Shown here: positions 36,452-63,589 of the stretch, piece by piece
Layout: each line of letters starts with the position of its first letter
How positions within the stretch are numbered: position 1 is the first letter of the stretch
Assembly: GCF_026967795.1 (NCBI RefSeq)
Contig: NZ_JAPVBH010000006.1
Coordinates: forward strand, 1 to 64,000
DNA: 64,000 nucleotides
Direction of reading: 5' to 3'
From: Modestobacter sp. VKM Ac-2986
GTDB taxonomy: Bacteria > Actinomycetota > Actinomycetes > Mycobacteriales > Geodermatophilaceae
Position numbers and translations under genes: made by a program
The notes under the pieces: generated by a model
What the model saw: only the letters and a program-made list of their open reading frames with translations
What the model was told of the DNA's origin: nothing
Database searches by the model: none

Positions 36452-36706
36452 TCAGGCGGTGGGGGCGGGTTCGCCGTCTGCGGGGGCGGTGGCGGGGTGG
36501 GTGCCCGTGCGGCTGGGCCTGACCGGGGGCGGCGGGGTGCTGGCCCAGCGCAGCAGCGCCACCACCGCCCAGCCGGCGGCCAGGCACCACGGCAGCCGGG
36601 TCAGGACGTCGTCGGCGCTGAAGTCGCCGCGCAGTGCCAGCAGGAGGACCGGGACGGCCAGCACGAAGCCGGTCATCACGACGTCCCACCGGAACGGGCT
36701 GATCAT
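36452..36706 (-). CDS. Small membrane protein after the flhF-like gene
   Basis: 84 aa with two hydrophobic helices (VVMTGFVLAVPVLLLALRG and LPWCLAAGWAVVALLRWA) and a Pro/Thr-rich tail. ATG 36706 overlaps the flhF-like stop by ATGA, so it ends the flagellar operon. No family recognised; a flagellar or membrane-assembly role is only inferred from position. Confidence 0.65.
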   Translation of the reverse strand: MISPFRWDVVMTGFVLAVPVLLLALRGDFSADDVLTRLPWCLAAGWAVVALLRWASTPPPPVRPSRTGTHPATAPADGEPAPTA

Positions 36707-39700
36707 GCGCCCATCTCCTCCAGGCGCTCGCACAGCAGGGAGGCCCAGCGGTGGGCGGTGGCGCGGGCGCCGTCGACCAGCGCGACCGGCACGTCCACGT
36801 GACCGAGCACGGAGGCCGGGTCGGCGGTGGCGTCGGTGTCCTGCACGATCACGGCGTCGACGCGGGGGAGCGCGTCCAGCCACGGCACGAGGTCCTCGGG
36901 CTTGCGGGTGGAGTCCATGACCGCCCAGACGGTGGCCGGTGCCCACACCGAGAGCATGTGCTCCAGCCACGGGCCGCCCGAGGTCCGCAGCGGGGCATCG
37001 ACGGCGACGATGGTGACGGTGTCGCTCGTGGCGGTGCGGCGGCGCTCGAGGGCGGTCTCCAGCGAGGTGATGCGGCTGGTGCTCTGCGCCATGCCGGCCA
37101 GCGCGCCGGCGGCGGCCCACTGCACGTCCTCGGGCTCCAGGCGCAGCGACAGGGCCAGCGAGCGGGCCGCGGCGAAGGTCTCCGCGCCCGGGCCGACGAC
37201 CATGATCACGTCGCCGGGCTCGGCCACCACGTAGGGCGCGGGGGCCAGGTGCTCGGTCAGCGTCCGGGTCAGGGCCGCGTAGACGCCGCGGGTGGCGGCG
37301 TCGGCGGAGAAGTCCGGGCCGAGCATGACGTCGGGGACGCCGAGGGTCAGCAGCTGGAGCTCGAGCTCTTCCGGGCCGGTCATCGCGAAGGGGGCCAGCG
37401 CGGTGGACGGCGCCGGGACCAGCCGGGTGACGGTGGCCAGCGTGGTCCCGGTCTCCTCCGCGGAGGGCAGGGCCGTCGCCGGACGGGACGCCGGGGCGAT
37501 GGACACCGGGGCGGTCGCCTGGTGCGGACGGGCGGTCACCGCGGGCCGCGTGGTGGCCGGCACCGGGGGCCGGCCGCGGCGCACCGGGGGCACGCCGGGA
37601 CGCCCCAGCAGCGCCGGGCGGCCCGACCCGCCGAGCGCCTGCGGCATGAGGGACAGCGCCGGGAAGGCCGTGGTCGCGTCGAGGGGCAGCGGTGCCGGGT
37701 CGCTGGCGGTACGGGCCAGCGTCACCGGGACGGCGGACCGCTGCTGCTCGGGCGTGCGTGCGTCCATGTGGCGGACCTCCTCGGCCGGGGACTCGTCGAC
37801 GACGACGGCGTCCACGACCATGGTCTGGGCGGCGGCCACCTGGGCGGCGCGCTGGGCGACACGGGCGTCGCTGGCGTAAGCGGTGCCGCGCTGGGCGGCG
37901 ACCCGGTGGGAACCGGTGTCGTAGGCGCTGGGCGCGGTGGTGTCGCAGGCCCACGGCTCGGGGACGTCGCGGACGCGGTCCTCGGCCAGGGCGTCGGGGA
38001 AGCGGTGACGCCCGCGGCCGGAACCGTTGGCCGCCAGCACCTCCTCGAGCAGGTCGGCGAGCTCCTCGTCGGCGGTGCGCACCGACTCGACCATCGACAG
38101 CGCCGGCACGTCCACCTTGACGGGCGCGACCAGCGCGGCCACCTCCGCCCGGACAGCCGCGGCACGCGCAGCCTCGATGCGGGCAGCCTCGACACGCGCG
38201 GCCTCGATGCGGACGGCGTCGATGCGGACGGCCTCGGCAGCTTCGGCCTCGGCCTGCAGCCGGGCGGCCTCGACGCGCACGGCCTCACGGTGGGCGGCCT
38301 CGAGGCGGGCAGCCTCGGCGCGGGCGGCTTCGATGCGCGCCGCCTCGATGCGCGTCGCCTCGATGCGCGCGGCTTCGATGCGCGCTGCCTCGATCCGGAC
38401 GGCCTCGAGCTCGGCCTGACGGCGAGCTGCCTCGACGGCCGCCTCGGCCTGGAGCCGGGCAGCCTCGGCGCGGGCGGCCTCGGCGGCCTCCGCCTCGGCC
38501 TGCAGCCGGGCGGCCTCGATGCGGACGGCCTCCGCGCGAGCGGCCTCAGCGGCCTGCGCCTCGGCCTGGCGGCGGGCGGCCTCGGCAGCCTCCAGCTCGG
38601 CCTGCAGCCGAGCGGCCTCGAGACGCTCGGCCTCGAGCCGGGCCGCCTCAAGACGCACGGCCTCGAGCCGGGCGGCCTCGATGCGGGCGGCCTCGGCGGC
38701 CTCCGCCTCGGCCTGCAGCCGCGCAGCCTCGAGACGCTCGGCCTCGACGCGCTCTGCCTTGAGCCGAGCGGCCTCCACCCGGGCAGCCTCCAGCCGGGCG
38801 GCCTCGACACGGGCAGCTTCGATGCGGGCGGCCTCGGCGGCCTCCGCCTCGGCCTGCAACCGCGCGGCCTCGAGGCGCTCGGCCTCGAGACGCTCGGCCT
38901 CGACACGGGCGGCCTCGACACGGGCGGCCTCGACACGGGCGGCCTCCAGCCGGGCAGCCTCCACGCGGGCAGCTTCGATGCGAGCGGCCTCAAGACGCGC
39001 GGCCTCGAAACGCGCGGCCTCGAGACGCGCGGCCTCGAGACGGGCGGCCTCGAGACGGGCGGCCTCCTCGGCCTCGGCCTGCACCTGGGCGGCCTCCGCC
39101 GCGACGGCAGCGGCCGCGGCGGCCTCCGCGGCGGCGCGGGTCCGGGCGGCCTCGGTGCGGGCGGCTTCGACACGGGCGGACTCGACACGGGCGGACTCGA
39201 CGCGGGCCGACTCCGCTGCAGCGGCCCGGGCCTGCTGACGTGCGGCCTCGGCGGCGGCTGCCTCGACCCGGGCGGCGGCGGTGCGGGCTGCCTCGGCAGC
39301 GGCCGCCTCGACGGCGGCGGCCTCCGCGAGGGCGGCGGACTCCTCGGCGGCCTCAGCGGCGGCCACCTCCGCAGCCACCTCCGCGGCGGCCTGGACCGGG
39401 CTGGAGGCCACCATCCGGGTCAGCGCAGCGGCGAACGGGGAGGGACGCACGGGCTCCTCGACGGCCGGCTCGGCCGCCGGGCGCTGGGCCCGCAGCTCCT
39501 CCGCCGACAGCATCAGGGTCGCCTTGGCGGGAGCGAACGGCTTGGGCGCGGCGGCACCACGCCGGCCGGCAGCGGCTGCAGCGGCGGCGGTCCGCCCCGG
39601 GGAGCGGGGCGCGGACCGGACCGGTGCCGGCTCGTCGATCCACTCGTCGACCCACTCGGGGGTGGCGGCGCGGGCGGCGGCGACGGCCCGCGCCGGGCTG

Positions 39701-40122
39701 GCGACCCGGTCGGCGGCGATCCGGTCGGCGGCGAGGGCGCGGGCGGTCACCGGGCGGCGGGCCGGCTCGGCCGGGGCGGCGGTGGCGCCGGCCCGGTCGT
39801 ACAGCGCAACCTCTGGTGTCTGCGGGGCGGCCGCACCGAGGAGCTCGGCGAGCTCGGCCATCCGGTCGTCCAGGGACGGCGCGGCGGCCGGGCGGGGGGT
39901 GCGGGCGGCGTCCTGGGGCACGGCGGACGCGGCGGCTGCACCGGCGTCCGTGGCCTTGGGGACCTCCACCTCGGCGATGAACCGCTCGTTGGTGAAGAAG
40001 CCGAACATCCCGCCGGAACGGATGCGGCGCACCCCGACGACGCGGGCCGAGGGCCCGAACTGCTCACGCGCGGCGGCGATGGCCTCGTCACGCGTGGCGG
40101 CCTCAACGGACTGCGTAGGCAC
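36703..40122 (-). CDS. FlhF-like protein with degenerate GTPase and EAARx repeats
   Basis: 1139 aa, about 2.5 times normal FlhF. The N-terminal ~55 residues (VEAATRDEAIAAAREQFGPS and the following strand) match the FlhF N domain; the C-terminal ~280 residues follow the NG-domain outline (GDVIMVVGPGAETFAAARSLAL, TVTIVAVDAPLRTSG, AVMDSTRKPEDL). The P-loop Gly-Lys-Thr is absent and the DTAGR and TKLD motifs are altered, so GTP binding is doubtful. Residues ~247-657 are almost pure EAAR(L/V/I) pentapeptides, predicted to be one long charged helix. It overlaps flhA by 20 nt, the usual place of flhF. Confidence 0.8.
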   Translation of the reverse strand: MPTQSVEAATRDEAIAAAREQFGPSARVVGVRRIRSGGMFGFFTNERFIAEVEVPKATDAGAAAASAVPQDAARTPRPAAAPSLDDRMAELAELLGAAAPQTPEVALYDRAGATAAPAEPARRPVTARALAADRIAADRVASPARAVAAARAATPEWVDEWIDEPAPVRSAPRSPGRTAAAAAAAGRRGAAAPKPFAPAKATLMLSAEELRAQRPAAEPAVEEPVRPSPFAAALTRMVASSPVQAAAEVAAEVAAAEAAEESAALAEAAAVEAAAAEAARTAAARVEAAAAEAARQQARAAAAESARVESARVESARVEAARTEAARTRAAAEAAAAAAVAAEAAQVQAEAEEAARLEAARLEAARLEAARFEAARLEAARIEAARVEAARLEAARVEAARVEAARVEAERLEAERLEAARLQAEAEAAEAARIEAARVEAARLEAARVEAARLKAERVEAERLEAARLQAEAEAAEAARIEAARLEAVRLEAARLEAERLEAARLQAELEAAEAARRQAEAQAAEAARAEAVRIEAARLQAEAEAAEAARAEAARLQAEAAVEAARRQAELEAVRIEAARIEAARIEATRIEAARIEAARAEAARLEAAHREAVRVEAARLQAEAEAAEAVRIDAVRIEAARVEAARIEAARAAAVRAEVAALVAPVKVDVPALSMVESVRTADEELADLLEEVLAANGSGRGRHRFPDALAEDRVRDVPEPWACDTTAPSAYDTGSHRVAAQRGTAYASDARVAQRAAQVAAAQTMVVDAVVVDESPAEEVRHMDARTPEQQRSAVPVTLARTASDPAPLPLDATTAFPALSLMPQALGGSGRPALLGRPGVPPVRRGRPPVPATTRPAVTARPHQATAPVSIAPASRPATALPSAEETGTTLATVTRLVPAPSTALAPFAMTGPEELELQLLTLGVPDVMLGPDFSADAATRGVYAALTRTLTEHLAPAPYVVAEPGDVIMVVGPGAETFAAARSLALSLRLEPEDVQWAAAGALAGMAQSTSRITSLETALERRRTATSDTVTIVAVDAPLRTSGGPWLEHMLSVWAPATVWAVMDSTRKPEDLVPWLDALPRVDAVIVQDTDATADPASVLGHVDVPVALVDGARATAHRWASLLCERLEEMGA
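38150..39380 (-). repeat. 15-bp coding repeat array within the flhF-like gene
   Basis: Dozens of imperfect 15-nt units, each encoding E-A-A-R-x on the minus strand, run almost without break. All six frames stay open here because of the repeat, which produces large spurious ORFs on both strands. Confidence 0.85.
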
Positions 40123-42151
40123 CGCTCACCACTCCCAGGGACTCGATCTGTGCTGTGCGGGACACCTCGTTGTAGGAGATGACCGACAACCGGGGCAGGA
40201 CCTGGCGGACCAGGCGGGACAGTGCGGCGCGGACCTGCGGGGAGCAGACCAGCACGGGGGAGAGGTTGAGCCGTTCGGCGTCCTCGAGGAGGTCGGTGCA
40301 GCCACGGACCAGGACGTCGACGGTGTGGCCGTCCAGGGCCAGCACCTGACCGCCCTCGGTCTGCCGCACCGACTCCAGGAGCCGCTGCTCGAACGAGGGG
40401 TCCAGGGTGATCACGTGCAGCCGCTCGTCCTCGGTGACGTAGGGGTGACTGATCGCCGCACCCAGCGCGTTGCGCACGGCCTCGACCAGGCCGTCGAGGT
40501 CGGTGGAGACCTTCGCCCGCAGCGACAGCGCCTCGAAGATGCGCACCAGGTCGCGGATGGAGACGTTCTCCTCCAGCAGCGCCTGGAGCACCTGCTGCAC
40601 CTGCCCGAGGCTCAGCAGTGCGGGGGTGAGCTCGTCGGCGACGGCGGGGTGCGAGCGGCGGACCATCTCCACCAGCACCTTGACGTCCTCGCGGCCCAGC
40701 AGGGCGGAGGCGTTCTGCCGGACGACCTCGGCCAGGTGCGTGGTGATGACCGAGGAGCGGTCGACCACCGTGGCGCCGGCCATCTCGGCCTGCCGCTGCA
40801 GCTCGGCGGGCACCCACTTGGCGGCCAGCCCGAAGACCGGCTCGCGGGTGGCCTTGCCGGGCAGCCCGTCGAGGTGGTCGCCGATCGCCAGCACGGTGCC
40901 GGCGGGCGAGGAGCCCTTGGCCGCCGGGACGCCGTTGAGCCAGATGACGTACTGCGAGGCGGGCAGGTCGAGGTTGTCGCGGGTGCGGACCAGCGGGATG
41001 ACCAGGCCGGTCTCCATGGCGACCTTGCGGCGCAGCGCCTTGACGCGGTCCAGCAGGTCGCCGCCGCGGGCGGTGTCGACCAGCTCGACGAGGTCGAAGG
41101 CGACCTCGAGCTCCAGCGGGTCGACCCGCATCCGGTCGGCGATCGCCTCGGGGGAGTCCGGCTGCGGCTCGGCTGCGCCCTGTGCCGCGGCCGCGGCCTC
41201 GGCGTCCTCGTCGACCTCGGGCTCCTCGGTCATGCGTGCGGCGAGGACGAGGAAGAGGCCACCGACGAGCAGGAAGGGGAGCTTCGGCAGGCCGGGGATC
41301 AGGCACAGGCCGAGGGAGGCGCCGCCGGCGATGCGCACCGGCATCTTGAACCGGCCGAGCTGGGCCATCAGGTCGCTGCCCATGTCGCCGTCGGTGGCCG
41401 ACCGGGTCACGATGATGCCGGTGGCGGTGGACATCAGCAGGGCCGGGATCATCGACACCAGGCCGTCGCCCACGGTCAGCAGCGAGAACGTCGTCACGGC
41501 CTCGGCCGGCGCCATCCCGCGCTGGATCACCCCGATGGCGAAGCCACCGATGAGGTTCACCAGGGTCACGATGATCCCGGCGATGGCGTCGCCCTTGACG
41601 AACTTGGACGCACCGTCCATCGAGCCGTAGAAGTCGGCCTCGGCGGTGACCTCGTGGCGGCGCCTGCGCGCCTGCGCCTCGTTGATCAGGCCGGCGTTGA
41701 GGTCCGCGTCGATGGCCATCTGCTTGCCGGGCATCGCGTCGAGGGTGAAGCGGGCGCCGACCTCGGCGACGCGGCCGGCACCGTTGGTGATCACCACGAA
41801 CTGCACGACGGTCAGGATGATGAAGATGACCATGCCGACGACCAGCGAGCCGCCGATGACGATGTGGCCGAAGGCCTCGATCACCTTGCCGGCGTAGCCG
41901 TCGGTGAGCACCAGCCGGGTCGAGGACACGTTCAGCGAGAGCCGGAACAGCGTCGCGACCAGGAGCAGCGAGGGGAAGACGGCGAAGTCCAGCGGCCGCC
42001 GGATCTGCATGGCGACCAGCAGGACCAGCAGCGAGATCGCCAGGTTCAGGCCGATCAGCAGGTCCATCAGCGCAGCGGGCAGCGGCACCACCAGCATGAG
42101 GACGATGGCGACGACTCCGATGGGTACTGCCGCCTTGGCCAGCTTGCCCAT
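40103..42151 (-). CDS. flhA: Flagellar type III export protein FlhA
   Basis: Central gate of the flagellar export apparatus, in the inner membrane with a large cytoplasmic nonamer ring. 682 aa from ATG 42151, GAGG 4 nt upstream. Eight hydrophobic helices lie within residues ~1-320; the FHIPEP signature is RFTLDAMPGKQMAIDADLNAG (~residue 140-160). The cytoplasmic domain (~350-682) has IRDLVRIFEAL and the TVDVLV/LVCSPQVRAALSRLV regions. The long N-terminal reading to 42316 is not conserved-looking. Confidence 0.97.
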   Translation of the reverse strand: MGKLAKAAVPIGVVAIVLMLVVPLPAALMDLLIGLNLAISLLVLLVAMQIRRPLDFAVFPSLLLVATLFRLSLNVSSTRLVLTDGYAGKVIEAFGHIVIGGSLVVGMVIFIILTVVQFVVITNGAGRVAEVGARFTLDAMPGKQMAIDADLNAGLINEAQARRRRHEVTAEADFYGSMDGASKFVKGDAIAGIIVTLVNLIGGFAIGVIQRGMAPAEAVTTFSLLTVGDGLVSMIPALLMSTATGIIVTRSATDGDMGSDLMAQLGRFKMPVRIAGGASLGLCLIPGLPKLPFLLVGGLFLVLAARMTEEPEVDEDAEAAAAAQGAAEPQPDSPEAIADRMRVDPLELEVAFDLVELVDTARGGDLLDRVKALRRKVAMETGLVIPLVRTRDNLDLPASQYVIWLNGVPAAKGSSPAGTVLAIGDHLDGLPGKATREPVFGLAAKWVPAELQRQAEMAGATVVDRSSVITTHLAEVVRQNASALLGREDVKVLVEMVRRSHPAVADELTPALLSLGQVQQVLQALLEENVSIRDLVRIFEALSLRAKVSTDLDGLVEAVRNALGAAISHPYVTEDERLHVITLDPSFEQRLLESVRQTEGGQVLALDGHTVDVLVRGCTDLLEDAERLNLSPVLVCSPQVRAALSRLVRQVLPRLSVISYNEVSRTAQIESLGVVSGAYAVR

Positions 42152-42335
42152 GGGACCTCGTTCCTGTGCCGCTGAGGTGCCGGTGCGCTCCTCACCGACC
42201 TTCTCGGCAGCCGTGGGAACGGTCCGTACCGCTGGGCCGGACGCGGGCAGCCCGCAGACCCCGCTGGTCACACCCGGCCCCACCGGCCCCGCGGCGGTGG
42301 TGGGGGAGTGACCCACGGGTCAGGAGGGTCCTTCC

Positions 42336-56388: not shown

Positions 56389-57251
56389 GGGCGGAGCACC
56401 TCGCGGACCCGCTGGAAGGCCGCCGACAGCTGGGCGTCGACGCGCTGGGTGCCGGCCTCGGCCAGGGCCCCGGCGCGCTCGACGGTCTCGTCGCCGACCA
56501 CGGTGACCGACCCGGGCAGCGAGGCGAGCGCCTCGGCGGGGACCTCGGCGAGGTCGTCGGGGTGCAGCCGCACGCGGACCGGGACGTCGGTGGGACAGAG
56601 GACGAGGGCGCGGCGGACGGCGTCCATGCCGGCGCTGTCGGCGAGGGCGACCTCGCGGCCGAGCAGGTCGCCGACGAGCAGCACGACCATGTCCAGCACG
56701 TCCTCGCGCAGCTGGTCGACGACGGGCACGGCGGTGGCGTCGAGGCGTTCGACCGCAGCGCCCATCGCGGCGGTGGCCGAGGCCAGCCGCCGCTCCCAGC
56801 GGGCCTGCACCGCGGCGAGCCGCTCCTCGGCGGCCTGCTCGGCGGCGCGGACCACGGCCTCGGCGGCGACCAGGCCCTCGGCGTGGCCGGCGGCCCAGCC
56901 GGCGCGGCGGGCCTCCTCGCGCAGCTTGGCCAGCTGCTCGGCGTAGACCTCGCCCAGCCGCAGCCCGACCCGGGTGGTGGAGGCGGCGTCGGCGCGGGCG
57001 GCGGCGTCGGGGACCGGGACCGGGGCGACCCGGACCGGCGGGACGGGCGCCCGGGGCGCGGTGACCGGGGGGACCTCGTCGCGGGGGGCCGGCACCGGCT
57101 CGGCGGTCGGGGCCTGCGGGGCGGCGCCGTCGGTCGCGCCCCGGGGGCCCGAGCGCCGTCCCCACGTCGGGGCGCCCTGCGCCCGCTGGTACGGGACGGC
57201 GTCGGCGGCCGAGGCCCCGCGCAGGAGCAACGTCTCACGCGACGAAGTCAT
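56385..57251 (-). CDS. fliH: Flagellar export regulator FliH
   Basis: 288 aa from ATG 57251, overlapping the fliG end. Pro/Ala-rich N-terminal ~95 residues, then a Glu/Ala coiled coil (EEARRAGWAAGHAEGLVAAEA) and a C-terminal FliH domain with LHPDDLAEVP. Inhibits and localises FliI. Longer than many FliH because of the linker. Confidence 0.88.
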   Translation of the reverse strand: MTSSRETLLLRGASAADAVPYQRAQGAPTWGRRSGPRGATDGAAPQAPTAEPVPAPRDEVPPVTAPRAPVPPVRVAPVPVPDAAARADAASTTRVGLRLGEVYAEQLAKLREEARRAGWAAGHAEGLVAAEAVVRAAEQAAEERLAAVQARWERRLASATAAMGAAVERLDATAVPVVDQLREDVLDMVVLLVGDLLGREVALADSAGMDAVRRALVLCPTDVPVRVRLHPDDLAEVPAEALASLPGSVTVVGDETVERAGALAEAGTQRVDAQLSAAFQRVREVLRP

Positions 57252-58302
57252 CGTCCCCGCCACGCGAGATGGTCAGCACGCCCTGCTCCTCGAGCACGCG
57301 GATGACCGCGACGATCTTGGCCTGGGCCTCCTCGACGGTGCGGGTGCGCACCGGGCCGAGCAGCTCGATCTCCTCCAGGAGGTTCTCCCCGGCACGCTCG
57401 GAGAGGTTGCGGACCACCTTGTCCCGGACGTCCTGCTTGACGCCCTTGAGCGCGGTGGCCAGGTCGTTGGCCTCGACGTCGCGCAGCACCAGCTGCAGCG
57501 ACCGGTCGTCGATCGTGACGATGTCCTCGAAGACGAACATCTGCGAGCGGATCCGCTCGGCGAGCTCGGGGTCGCTCTTCTCCAGCCACTCCAGGATCGA
57601 GCGCTCGGTGGGCCGGGAGGAGCGGTTGATGATCTCGACCAGGGTCTCCACGCCGCCGACGGTGGCCATGTCCTGGTAGGCCAGCAGCGACCCCATCCGG
57701 CGGCCGAGCTCCTCCTCGACCATCCGGACCATCTCCGGGGCGGTGCGGTCCATCATCGCGATCCGGTAGGCGACGTCGGCCTGCTGGTCCGGCGGGAAGC
57801 CCGACAGCACCTCGGCCGACTGCGGCGCGGGCAGGTGGGCGAGCACGAGGGCGACCACCTGCGGGTGCTCGTCCTTGAGGAAGGTGACCAGCTGCCGCAC
57901 GTCGCTGTTGCGCAGCGATGCGAAGGGCAGCTCGGTGTAGACGACGTTGAGCCGGGACAGGATGCCGTCGGCCCGCTCCTCGCCGAGCCCGGCTGCGAGG
58001 ACCTCGCGGGCGAACTCCACGCCGCCGGTGCCCACGAAGCGCCGGGCGTTCATCAGCGTGTGGAACTCGGTGAGGACGTCGTCGACGTCGGCGCCGTCCA
58101 CGCCCTGCAGCCGCATGAGCTCACCGGTCAGCTGCTCGACCTCGGAGGGGCGCAGCTGCGCCAGGACGGCGCCGGCCTCCTCCTTGGACAGCTGGGCGAG
58201 GAACACCGCTGCCTTGCGCAGCCCGGGCAGTTCCCTGCGGGGGACCGCGATCTGGGCGGTCGCCGGCATCCCGACGAGCTGTTCGACGCTGGCGATGCTC
58301 AT
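57235..58302 (-). CDS. fliG: Flagellar motor switch protein FliG
   Basis: Rotor protein that takes torque from MotA. 355 aa: N domain (KAAVFLAQLSKEEAGAVLAQL), middle domain with the EHPQVVALVLAHL motif (~residue 130), and the C-terminal torque helix region with FVFEDIVTIDDRSLQLVLRDVEANDLA. ATG 58302 overlaps the stop of the repeat-encoded small ORF. Confidence 0.97.
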   Translation of the reverse strand: MSIASVEQLVGMPATAQIAVPRRELPGLRKAAVFLAQLSKEEAGAVLAQLRPSEVEQLTGELMRLQGVDGADVDDVLTEFHTLMNARRFVGTGGVEFAREVLAAGLGEERADGILSRLNVVYTELPFASLRNSDVRQLVTFLKDEHPQVVALVLAHLPAPQSAEVLSGFPPDQQADVAYRIAMMDRTAPEMVRMVEEELGRRMGSLLAYQDMATVGGVETLVEIINRSSRPTERSILEWLEKSDPELAERIRSQMFVFEDIVTIDDRSLQLVLRDVEANDLATALKGVKQDVRDKVVRNLSERAGENLLEEIELLGPVRTRTVEEAQAKIVAVIRVLEEQGVLTISRGGDDDFVA

Positions 58303-61791: not shown

Positions 61792-62174
61792 GCGGGGCTC
61801 GAGGCGAGGGAGGCCGCGGCCTCCCGCCACGCGTCGCGCAGCGGCTCGACGATCTTGCGGCAGTCACCCACGCGGCGCAGGTCGCCCTTGACGTTGGCGC
61901 GTACCAGCTCGCCGTGCAGCCAGGTGTAGAGCGCGGACAGGCGGGGACCGCCCTCCCACGACTCGACCTGCAGGCTGGACTGGAGCTCCAGCACGATGTC
62001 CTGGGCGTGCTGGAGCAGGTTGTTGGCCTGCTCGCGGTCGCCGGTGGTCAGTGCCGACTCGGCCCGCTCGAGGTCCAGGGCGAGCCGGTCGTAGAGCATC
62101 ACCAGCAGGCGCTGGGGCGAGGCGGTGCTGACGGCATCGCCGAGGTAGCGGTTCCGCAGGGTGGCGGCACTCAT
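61788..62174 (-). CDS. fliS: Flagellin export chaperone FliS
   Basis: 128 aa; ATG 62174 with GGAGG 7 nt upstream. YLGDAVSTASPQRLLVMLYDRLALDLERAE is the FliS helix signature. Prevents premature flagellin polymerisation. Confidence 0.93.
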   Translation of the reverse strand: MSAATLRNRYLGDAVSTASPQRLLVMLYDRLALDLERAESALTTGDREQANNLLQHAQDIVLELQSSLQVESWEGGPRLSALYTWLHGELVRANVKGDLRRVGDCRKIVEPLRDAWREAAASLASSPA

Positions 62175-62200
62175 CGGGTTTCCTCCGGGGGAGCGGTGGG

Positions 62201-63589
62201 TCAGGAGCTCTTCGACAGGGACGCGAGCTGGGAGGACAGCCAGGACGACTTGCTCTGCAGCGTGCCCAGGGCGGTCTCCATGGCGGTGAACCGTGCGGTG
62301 ATGCTGGCCTCGCGGAGCTCCAGCCGACGGTCCCAGTCCGAGATCTGGCCGGTCAGGCCGGCGGCCCGCTCGTCCTCGCCCTTGGCCCGCAGGGTCAGGA
62401 TGCCGGTCGTGGTGTTGCTCGCCTGCTTGGACAGCTCGAGCAGCCGCTGGGCGACGCCCTGGACGGCGACGGTGTCGTCGGCGTCCCCGGTCGTCCCGTT
62501 CGGCCCGGCGGTGGCGTCGGTCCCGTTGACCAGGGCCTGCACCTTCGCCGGGTCGGCGGCGAGCGCGGCGGTGAACTTCGCGGAGTCGAAGGCGAGCTTG
62601 CCGTCGCGGGTCAGCGAGATGCCCACGGTGGAGGCCGAGGCGCCGCCGATGGACGTGGAGATGGTCGACAGGACCGAGCTGGTCAGCGAGCGCAGCGTGC
62701 TGTCGCCCTTGAGCGCGGCCTTGCTGCCCGCGGCGGTGTCGGTCTGGGTGGCGATCGCGGACAGCACCCCGTTGGCGGCGTCGACGAGCGCCTTCACCTT
62801 GTCGGCGACGGCGCTCGGGTCGCTGGCGACGCCGACGGTGACCGTCGAGCCGTCGACCTTGGCGGCGGTGATGGTCACACCGGGCAGCAGGTCGGTGAAC
62901 ACGTTGCTGGTGGAGCTGGCCGTCAGGCCGCTGCCCAGCGTGAGCTGGGCGTTGCGCCCCTGGTCGTTGAGCAGGAACCCCGTGGCGGGCCCGGAGCCGG
63001 TGACGTCGAAGGCGCCCGCGGCGCCGCCGGTGCTGGCGGTGAGCTGCAGCCGGAACTCGTTCGCCCCCAGCTGGACGACCGACGCGGTGACGCCGGCCTT
63101 CGCGCCGTTGATGGCGGACGCGGCATCGGCGAGCGTGGCGCCGGCGGGGACGGCGATCGAGGTGGCGGCCTGGGTGGCGGAGTTGGTGACGGTCATCGAC
63201 CACGCGGAGCCGTCGGCGGTGGCCGAGGCGGTCCGGGAGCTCCACTGGCTGCCGCTGACCATGCTGTGCGTGCCGGCGAGCGAGCTGACCGTGAAGGTGA
63301 TGGACGAGCCCGGCGTGGCGGTGGTCCCGGCGGTCGCGACGACGTCGGGGCTGGAGCTGCTCGCCTTCGCGGCGGCGAAGGTGGCCGACCTGGTCATGGC
63401 CTCGGCTGCGCTGCGCAGCGCGTCGAACTTGGTGTTGACGGCGCGGTAGGCGGCGGCGTCGGCCTTGACGTCGACCAGCTTGTTCTGCAGCAGCTTCTGC
63501 GGGTTCGCCTCGATCTGCATCAGCTGGCTGATCATCGTGTCGTAGTTGATGCCCGAGATCAGGCCCGTGCTCACGCTCATGCCGGCCAT
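62201..63589 (-). CDS. fliD: Flagellar filament cap protein FliD
   Basis: 462 aa. STGLISGINYDTMISQLMQIEANPQKLLQNKL is the coiled N-terminal segment; a Thr/Ala/Val-rich middle (residues ~90-330) is followed by the C-terminal helices (ITARFTAMETALGTLQSKSSWLSSQLASLS). Caps the growing filament and folds flagellin. Lies after a terminator downstream of flagellin. Confidence 0.93.
   Translation of the reverse strand: MAGMSVSTGLISGINYDTMISQLMQIEANPQKLLQNKLVDVKADAAAYRAVNTKFDALRSAAEAMTRSATFAAAKASSSSPDVVATAGTTATPGSSITFTVSSLAGTHSMVSGSQWSSRTASATADGSAWSMTVTNSATQAATSIAVPAGATLADAASAINGAKAGVTASVVQLGANEFRLQLTASTGGAAGAFDVTGSGPATGFLLNDQGRNAQLTLGSGLTASSTSNVFTDLLPGVTITAAKVDGSTVTVGVASDPSAVADKVKALVDAANGVLSAIATQTDTAAGSKAALKGDSTLRSLTSSVLSTISTSIGGASASTVGISLTRDGKLAFDSAKFTAALAADPAKVQALVNGTDATAGPNGTTGDADDTVAVQGVAQRLLELSKQASNTTTGILTLRAKGEDERAAGLTGQISDWDRRLELREASITARFTAMETALGTLQSKSSWLSSQLASLSKSS

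Follow-up and report, generated by a model that had tools for sequence, protein, structure and literature searches.

A conserved FlhF-like pseudo-GTPase with a lineage-specific, predicted helical linker in the flagellar gene cluster of Modestobacter

Results

The gene that adjoins flhA in the flagellar cluster of the soil bacterium Modestobacter sp. VKM Ac-2986 encodes a protein that is well supported as a descendant of FlhF and as a conserved pseudo-GTPase, here called pseudo-FlhF. We analyzed it in a window of 64,000 nucleotides (contig NZ_JAPVBH010000006.1, positions 1 to 64,000) and in related genomes. The frame described in an initial annotation of the window proved to be real, with exactly the limits given there (Table 1), and it lies on the minus strand, which that annotation had left out; its third-codon GC content is 0.92. 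The proposed flhF slot also held, as the first 20 nt of pseudo-flhF overlap the end of flhA, and the same offset of -20 is found in 66/66 complete Geodermatophilaceae orthologues. The gene stands at the end of a cluster of flagellar genes, among them fliE, fliF, fliG, fliH, flgD, flgE, motA, motB, fliM, fliN, and flhA, together with fliO to fliR and flhB, which were recognized by eye in the list of open reading frames (ORFs). The nearest named genome is that of Modestobacter muralis, with a 96% match over the C-terminal 240 aa of pseudo-FlhF. The possibility that a further, canonical FlhF is encoded at another site in the genome was considered and rejected; the only strong matches were two SRP54-type proteins, which are presumably Ffh and FtsY, and one weak match fell in an 844-aa frame.

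Table 1. Positions in the window of pseudo-flhF, its predicted parts, and the genes discussed with it
Feature	Coordinates	Strand	Remarks
pseudo-flhF gene	36703..40122	(-)	1139 aa, GTG start; adjoins flhA, placement conserved
FID-like N-terminal domain, aa 1-54	39961..40122	(-)	hhalign; profile match to 9en1; AF2
Pro/Ala-rich linker, aa 55-240	39403..39960	(-)	predicted mostly disordered; conserved PSPFAAAL segment near aa 227-234
EAARx array, aa 241-662	38137..39402	(-)	predicted single continuous helix
Second linker, aa 663-915	37378..38136	(-)	mostly disordered; short conserved segments around aa 680-710 and 803-826
Pseudo-NG domain, aa 916-1139	36706..37377	(-)	hhalign, AlphaFold, Foldseek
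Degenerate P-loop GPGAETF, aa 977-983	37174..37194	(-)	lacks Walker A Lys/Thr
G3-position motif VDAPLR, aa 1041-1046	36985..37002	(-)	in place of DTAG
STRKPED, aa 1071-1077	36892..36912	(-)	counterpart of (S)xTTKxxD of canonical FlhF
G4-position segment VQDTDATADP, aa 1093-1102	36817..36846	(-)	in place of TKLDE
flhA	40103..42316	(-)	upstream of pseudo-flhF, 20-nt overlap; FHIPEP E 1.5e-256
84-aa two-TM protein	36452..36706	(-)	ATG overlaps pseudo-flhF stop by 4 nt; no Pfam match
fliG	57235..58302	(-)	predicted partner of the pseudo-FlhF FID

The FliG-interaction domain (FID), or start of the B domain, with which an FlhF begins is recognizable in pseudo-FlhF; residues 1 to 54 align with the canonical FlhF N terminus at an hhalign E value of 9e-16, and the FlhF N-terminal motif reported in the initial annotation is therefore genuine. 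A mixed profile of canonical and pseudo-FlhF sequences matched the structure of the FlhF FID (9en1) at E 2e-5, a match that weakened to E 0.094 once the canonical rows were removed. AlphaFold2 (AF2) places strands at residues 4 to 8, 27 to 36, and 45 to 53 and a helix at 11 to 22, and this strand-helix-strand-strand order over residues 4 to 53 is consistent with the FID as published, which has three antiparallel strands and a single helix (PMC11236974).

Pfam gave nothing above cut-off for the whole protein, the curated FlhF family model (NCBIfam TIGR03499) scored 17.5 bits against a cut-off of 174.15, and pseudo-FlhF is not a member of the FlhF GTPase family as curated. A PDB sequence search with the C-domain alone returned nothing useful, and a wide profile gave no hint at family level other than SRP54, at E 0.29. 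The profile built from 23 relatives was collinear with canonical FlhF over 191 columns (hhalign probability 65%, E 6e-5), which is modest on its own. When the C-domain was modeled with AlphaFold from 44 sequences (pLDDT 77.9, pTM 0.76), the best 50 Foldseek matches listed were all SRP NG GTPases, with E values from 1e-5, and the top structural Z score, 11.2, was to GDP-bound FlhF (8r9r); the C-domain of a second, full-length AlphaFold run again matched SRP NG domains, at E values down to 2e-8. The NG-like outline that had been suggested for this region, with structure prediction named as the check, is thus found as an SRP-type NG fold in the predicted models.

The nucleotide motifs of this domain are degenerate. 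The P-loop position reads VIMVVGPGAETFAAAR (GPGAETFAA), with the Walker A Lys/Thr missing; the Walker A pattern GxxxxGK[ST] occurs in 0/80 named Geodermatophilaceae loci, so that none of the family orthologues keeps the residues whose absence had been pointed out for the window, and GPG occurs in 80/80. The later GTPase motifs are altered as well, as had been claimed, with VDAPLR for DTAG and VQDTDATADP for TKLDE, and TK[LMVI]D is found in 0/80 of the same loci. The conserved residues of the pseudo-NG domain include W, TRK, and DGxRAT; TRK is present in all 80 loci (80/80), and its R and K are kept in nearly all relatives in the class. The TRK lies within STRKPED, the counterpart of a region that lies at the N-G interface in SRP GTPases, where its survival would fit a kept fold.

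We sampled 115 Geodermatophilaceae genomes, with the motif counts made on 80 named loci, and found the C-domain in 101/115 and FlhA in 103/115. The dN/dS ratio of the C-domain was 0.25 to 0.33 against six close relatives and 0.46 and 0.66 against two more distant ones, and about 50 C-domain positions are invariant among 44 sequences; judging from the ratios to close relatives, the domain appears to be under purifying selection in the family. Two records in these comparisons are irregular. Locus L246 (SPQJ01000039.1), labeled "Bacillus sp. AZ43" (UNVERIFIED_ORG), carries a pseudo-flhF of Geodermatophilaceae type and is probably mislabeled, and in L071 (genome G093) 578 nt separate the flhA stop from the point where the pseudo-flhF frame opens, possibly through a linker frameshift or an assembly error.

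At the level of the class, FlhA was found in 44/346 genomes and the C-domain profile matched 20, with the C-domain directly after flhA in 17 of the profile-matched class genomes besides the window. The ORF that follows flhA in flagellated genomes of the class mostly has the FID motif, then a linker and a pseudo-NG domain without GKT, and pseudo-FlhF encoded beside flhA is spread over flagellated Actinomycetes and further classes. Some relatives have an eroded C-domain or none, one family (f15) has an FID-only protein after flhA, and no flhF gene follows flhA in flagellated genomes of f29, f36, and one of f39; since flhF has gone from some flagellated genomes, pseudo-FlhF is not universally needed.

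Canonical FlhF scored over cut-off in 14/346 genomes of the phylum, none of them in the class of the window, and in 14/14 of these canonical loci flhF adjoins an flhG with the DQAxxLR motif. In the five canonical-FlhF genomes tested, FlhG scored 225 to 435 bits; scores did not exceed 57 bits in the 34 other genomes tested, that of the window included, where the best match was 44.8 bits; none was found in the window. Among the genomes tested, then, FlhG is found only beside canonical FlhF. Several families keep GK[ST] in the absence of FlhG, others have a pseudo-NG domain, and others an eroded C-domain. In an unrooted FlhA tree of 61 sequences (FastTree support), a single branch with support of 1.0 has all lineages without Walker A on the same side, for which one ancestral loss of Walker A is the simplest reading; the f51 genomes lack flhF altogether and cluster with the canonical side.

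Compared with characterized FlhF (Bacillus subtilis 2px0/2px3, Shewanella putrefaciens 8r9r, and the FID structure 9en1), pseudo-FlhF shares the slot after flhA, the FID-like N terminus, a long variable linker, the NG fold, and a counterpart of (S)xTxKxxD, but it lacks Walker A, DTAG, TKxD, and an FlhG partner, and its linker is much longer. Diverged FlhF proteins of other actinobacterial families (f60, f61, f67, f81, f85, and f98) are alike in their FlhF-type N terminus, NG outline, and lack of FlhG, whereas they keep the GK[ST] that is missing here.

The linker contains an array of 41 EAARx units, with as many as 11 in a row, that is broken by LQAEAEAAEAAR-type inserts and lies within 424 residues (243 to 666) among which neither Pro nor Gly occurs. 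AlphaFold predicts one uninterrupted helix from residue 241 to 662, which would be ~63 nm long if fully extended (0.15 nm per residue). Glu-to-Arg pairs at i+3 number 55, against 13.1 +/- 2.9 in shuffled sequences (four times expectation), like-charge pairs are depleted, and the heptad signal is 0.05 against 0.33 expected, all as expected of a lone helix and not of a coiled coil. The 41 EAAR units are encoded by 21 different codon strings, which indicates that the peptide is maintained and not just a DNA repeat. The array thus shows the traits of single alpha-helix (SAH) domains (PMC4183817), namely a charged stretch that lacks Pro and Gly, closely set Glu-Arg pairs at i,i+3 with no heptad (an i,i+3/i+4 salt-bridge pattern), and a predicted uninterrupted helix between two domains; it differs from them in having only 36% charged residues, ~41% Ala, and five-residue repeats, and its helix is predicted.

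The long helix is a lineage-specific linker and not a property of the family. Pro/Gly-free stretches of at least 150 residues are present in 18/66 complete Geodermatophilaceae orthologues, in Modestobacter, a Blastococcus/Trujillonella group, and Klenkia, and such linkers have perhaps evolved repeatedly; the other orthologues have different linkers, and total length ranges from 669 to 1659 aa. The linkers that replace the helix in relatives are Pro-rich, acidic, or of other kinds, unrelated and of very different length, and where arrays occur their periods are 5, 9, 10, 13, or 25, with an A/E/R/Q alphabet common to all. The EAARx helix of the initial annotation therefore stands as regards the array itself, its E-R spacing, and its prediction as one helix, but a general role for it is not supported, because relatives carry other linkers.

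Discussion

The usual account of FlhF is that of a switch, driven by GTP, that governs where flagella are placed. Pseudo-FlhF, found in a large branch of actinobacteria, probably serves instead as a nucleotide-free tether for building flagella, with a mode of action that likely resembles that of the tethering half of FlhF. In the form that we favor with moderate confidence, the protein would be unable to use GTP normally and would act as a bivalent tether made of FID, linker, and pseudo-NG domain. The FID would bind FliG, as it does in Shewanella FlhF, and seed assembly of the FliF/FliG ring; the pseudo-NG domain might be a nucleotide-independent docking or self-association module; FlhG would not be needed once there is no GTPase cycle; and the linker would set the reach, with the Modestobacter helix as a stiff spacer of ~63 nm if fully extended. 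The docking proposal echoes the NG domain of canonical FlhF, which binds a polar landmark regardless of nucleotide: in Shewanella the FID tethers FliG and the NG domain binds the polar protein HubP independently of nucleotide (PMC11236974). In Pseudomonas aeruginosa the FlhF G domain directs polar localization, and GTP binding regulates the interaction between FlhF and FliG (PMC12713375), a step that a nucleotide-free version must have changed. Retention of both end domains with loss of the GTP site fits a constitutive tether. Several points stand against this model: HubP serves as a landmark in other bacteria, binding of GTP or of another ligand could occur even in the absence of the Lys, the C-domain is eroded or lost in some relatives and flhF itself in some flagellated genomes, the long helix is not conserved, and dN/dS against distant relatives reaches 0.46 and 0.66. 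A more specific version, in which FlhF of this actinobacterial branch became a constitutive nucleotide-free scaffold after loss of FlhG and the linkers of some lineages act as a single-helix ruler (~63 nm here) that would fix the distance from an anchor to the FliG/MS-ring nucleation site, is one that we put forward only tentatively and consider rather doubtful.

Two other explanations concern the C-domain. The protein could be kept for its FID only, as a FliG chaperone or assembly factor, with the pseudo-NG domain a slowly decaying remnant; FlhF stabilizes FliG in E. coli according to the Shewanella study (PMC11236974), and no other part is retained as widely as the FID, which persists in relatives with an eroded C-domain or none (f15 and f86/f55-type). 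Slow decay is difficult to square with the low dN/dS against close relatives, the ~50 invariant positions, and the retention of the C-domain in most of the class since what appears to have been a single, old loss of Walker A, and we regard this explanation as unlikely. That the C-domain is still a switch, binding GTP or another nucleotide through a remodeled G-x-[GTA]-x-x-[AT] loop, seems to us quite improbable: the loop does retain the first Gly and a pattern recognizable across the class, and the top PDB match of the wide profile was a dinucleotide-type GxGxxA loop (nonsignificant, E 0.045), but the Walker A Lys/Thr is gone, TKxD is absent from 80/80 loci, the FlhG activator is absent from the genomes tested, and the matched fold is that of SRP GTPases, whose nucleotide site depends on the lost residues.

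The remaining alternatives bear on the array and on the gene itself. A five-residue period with aliphatic residues could indicate a pentapeptide-repeat beta-helix or a coiled coil in place of a lone helix, and there are weak Pfam pentapeptide matches (PF00805 and PF13599, E 0.28 and 0.5). These lie far below the cut-offs, scoring 10.4 and 11.7 bits where 20.2 and 38 are required; the periods of 9, 10, 13, or 25 in relatives keep helix propensity and not a pentapeptide register, the heptad signal is low, and AF2 gives a continuous helix. Both forms, very improbable in our estimation, were rejected. The long repetitive plus-strand ORFs at the same place might suggest a frame called on the wrong strand, or the gene might be a decaying pseudogene; with the same operon slot across families and classes, dN/dS well below 1, and clear homology at both ends, we find this scarcely credible, and decay was rejected on the conservation and dN/dS.

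If pseudo-FlhF is indeed a tether, a conserved pseudo-GTPase FlhF with FlhG gone would separate the tethering part of the protein from the GTPase cycle, and the branch without Walker A would be a natural experiment on FlhF function without GTP. The states found form a graded series, from canonical FlhF with FlhG through Walker A without FlhG, pseudo-NG, eroded C-domain, and FID only to loss of the gene, which should be useful for dating and testing each step. A 2023 survey reported that classes without FlgFG (Acidimicrobiia, Nitriliruptoria, and Actinomycetia) lack FlhF (PMC10746217); our results suggest that FlhF is present but cryptic in classes scored in this way, overlooked because its GTPase motifs are gone. 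A literature search for FlhF described as a "pseudoGTPase" found none.

Neighboring genes

The 84-aa two-TM protein encoded after pseudo-flhF is a possible membrane partner of pseudo-FlhF. Many flagellar clusters of actinobacteria have similar two-TM ORFs after flhF, or straight after flhA in genomes that have lost flhF; because the gene outlasts flhF in this way, FlhF cannot be all that it serves, and a role as a dedicated FlhF anchor was rejected. In two relatives from the class (L108 and L115), the ORF that follows pseudo-flhF contains an RRRYxR-type stretch, a sequence pattern suggestive of a PilZ domain. Elsewhere in the window, a 511-aa ORF (61914-63449, plus strand) that shows good codon bias but no Pfam match lies within the flagellar region on the opposite strand, adjoining the C terminus of a flagellin.
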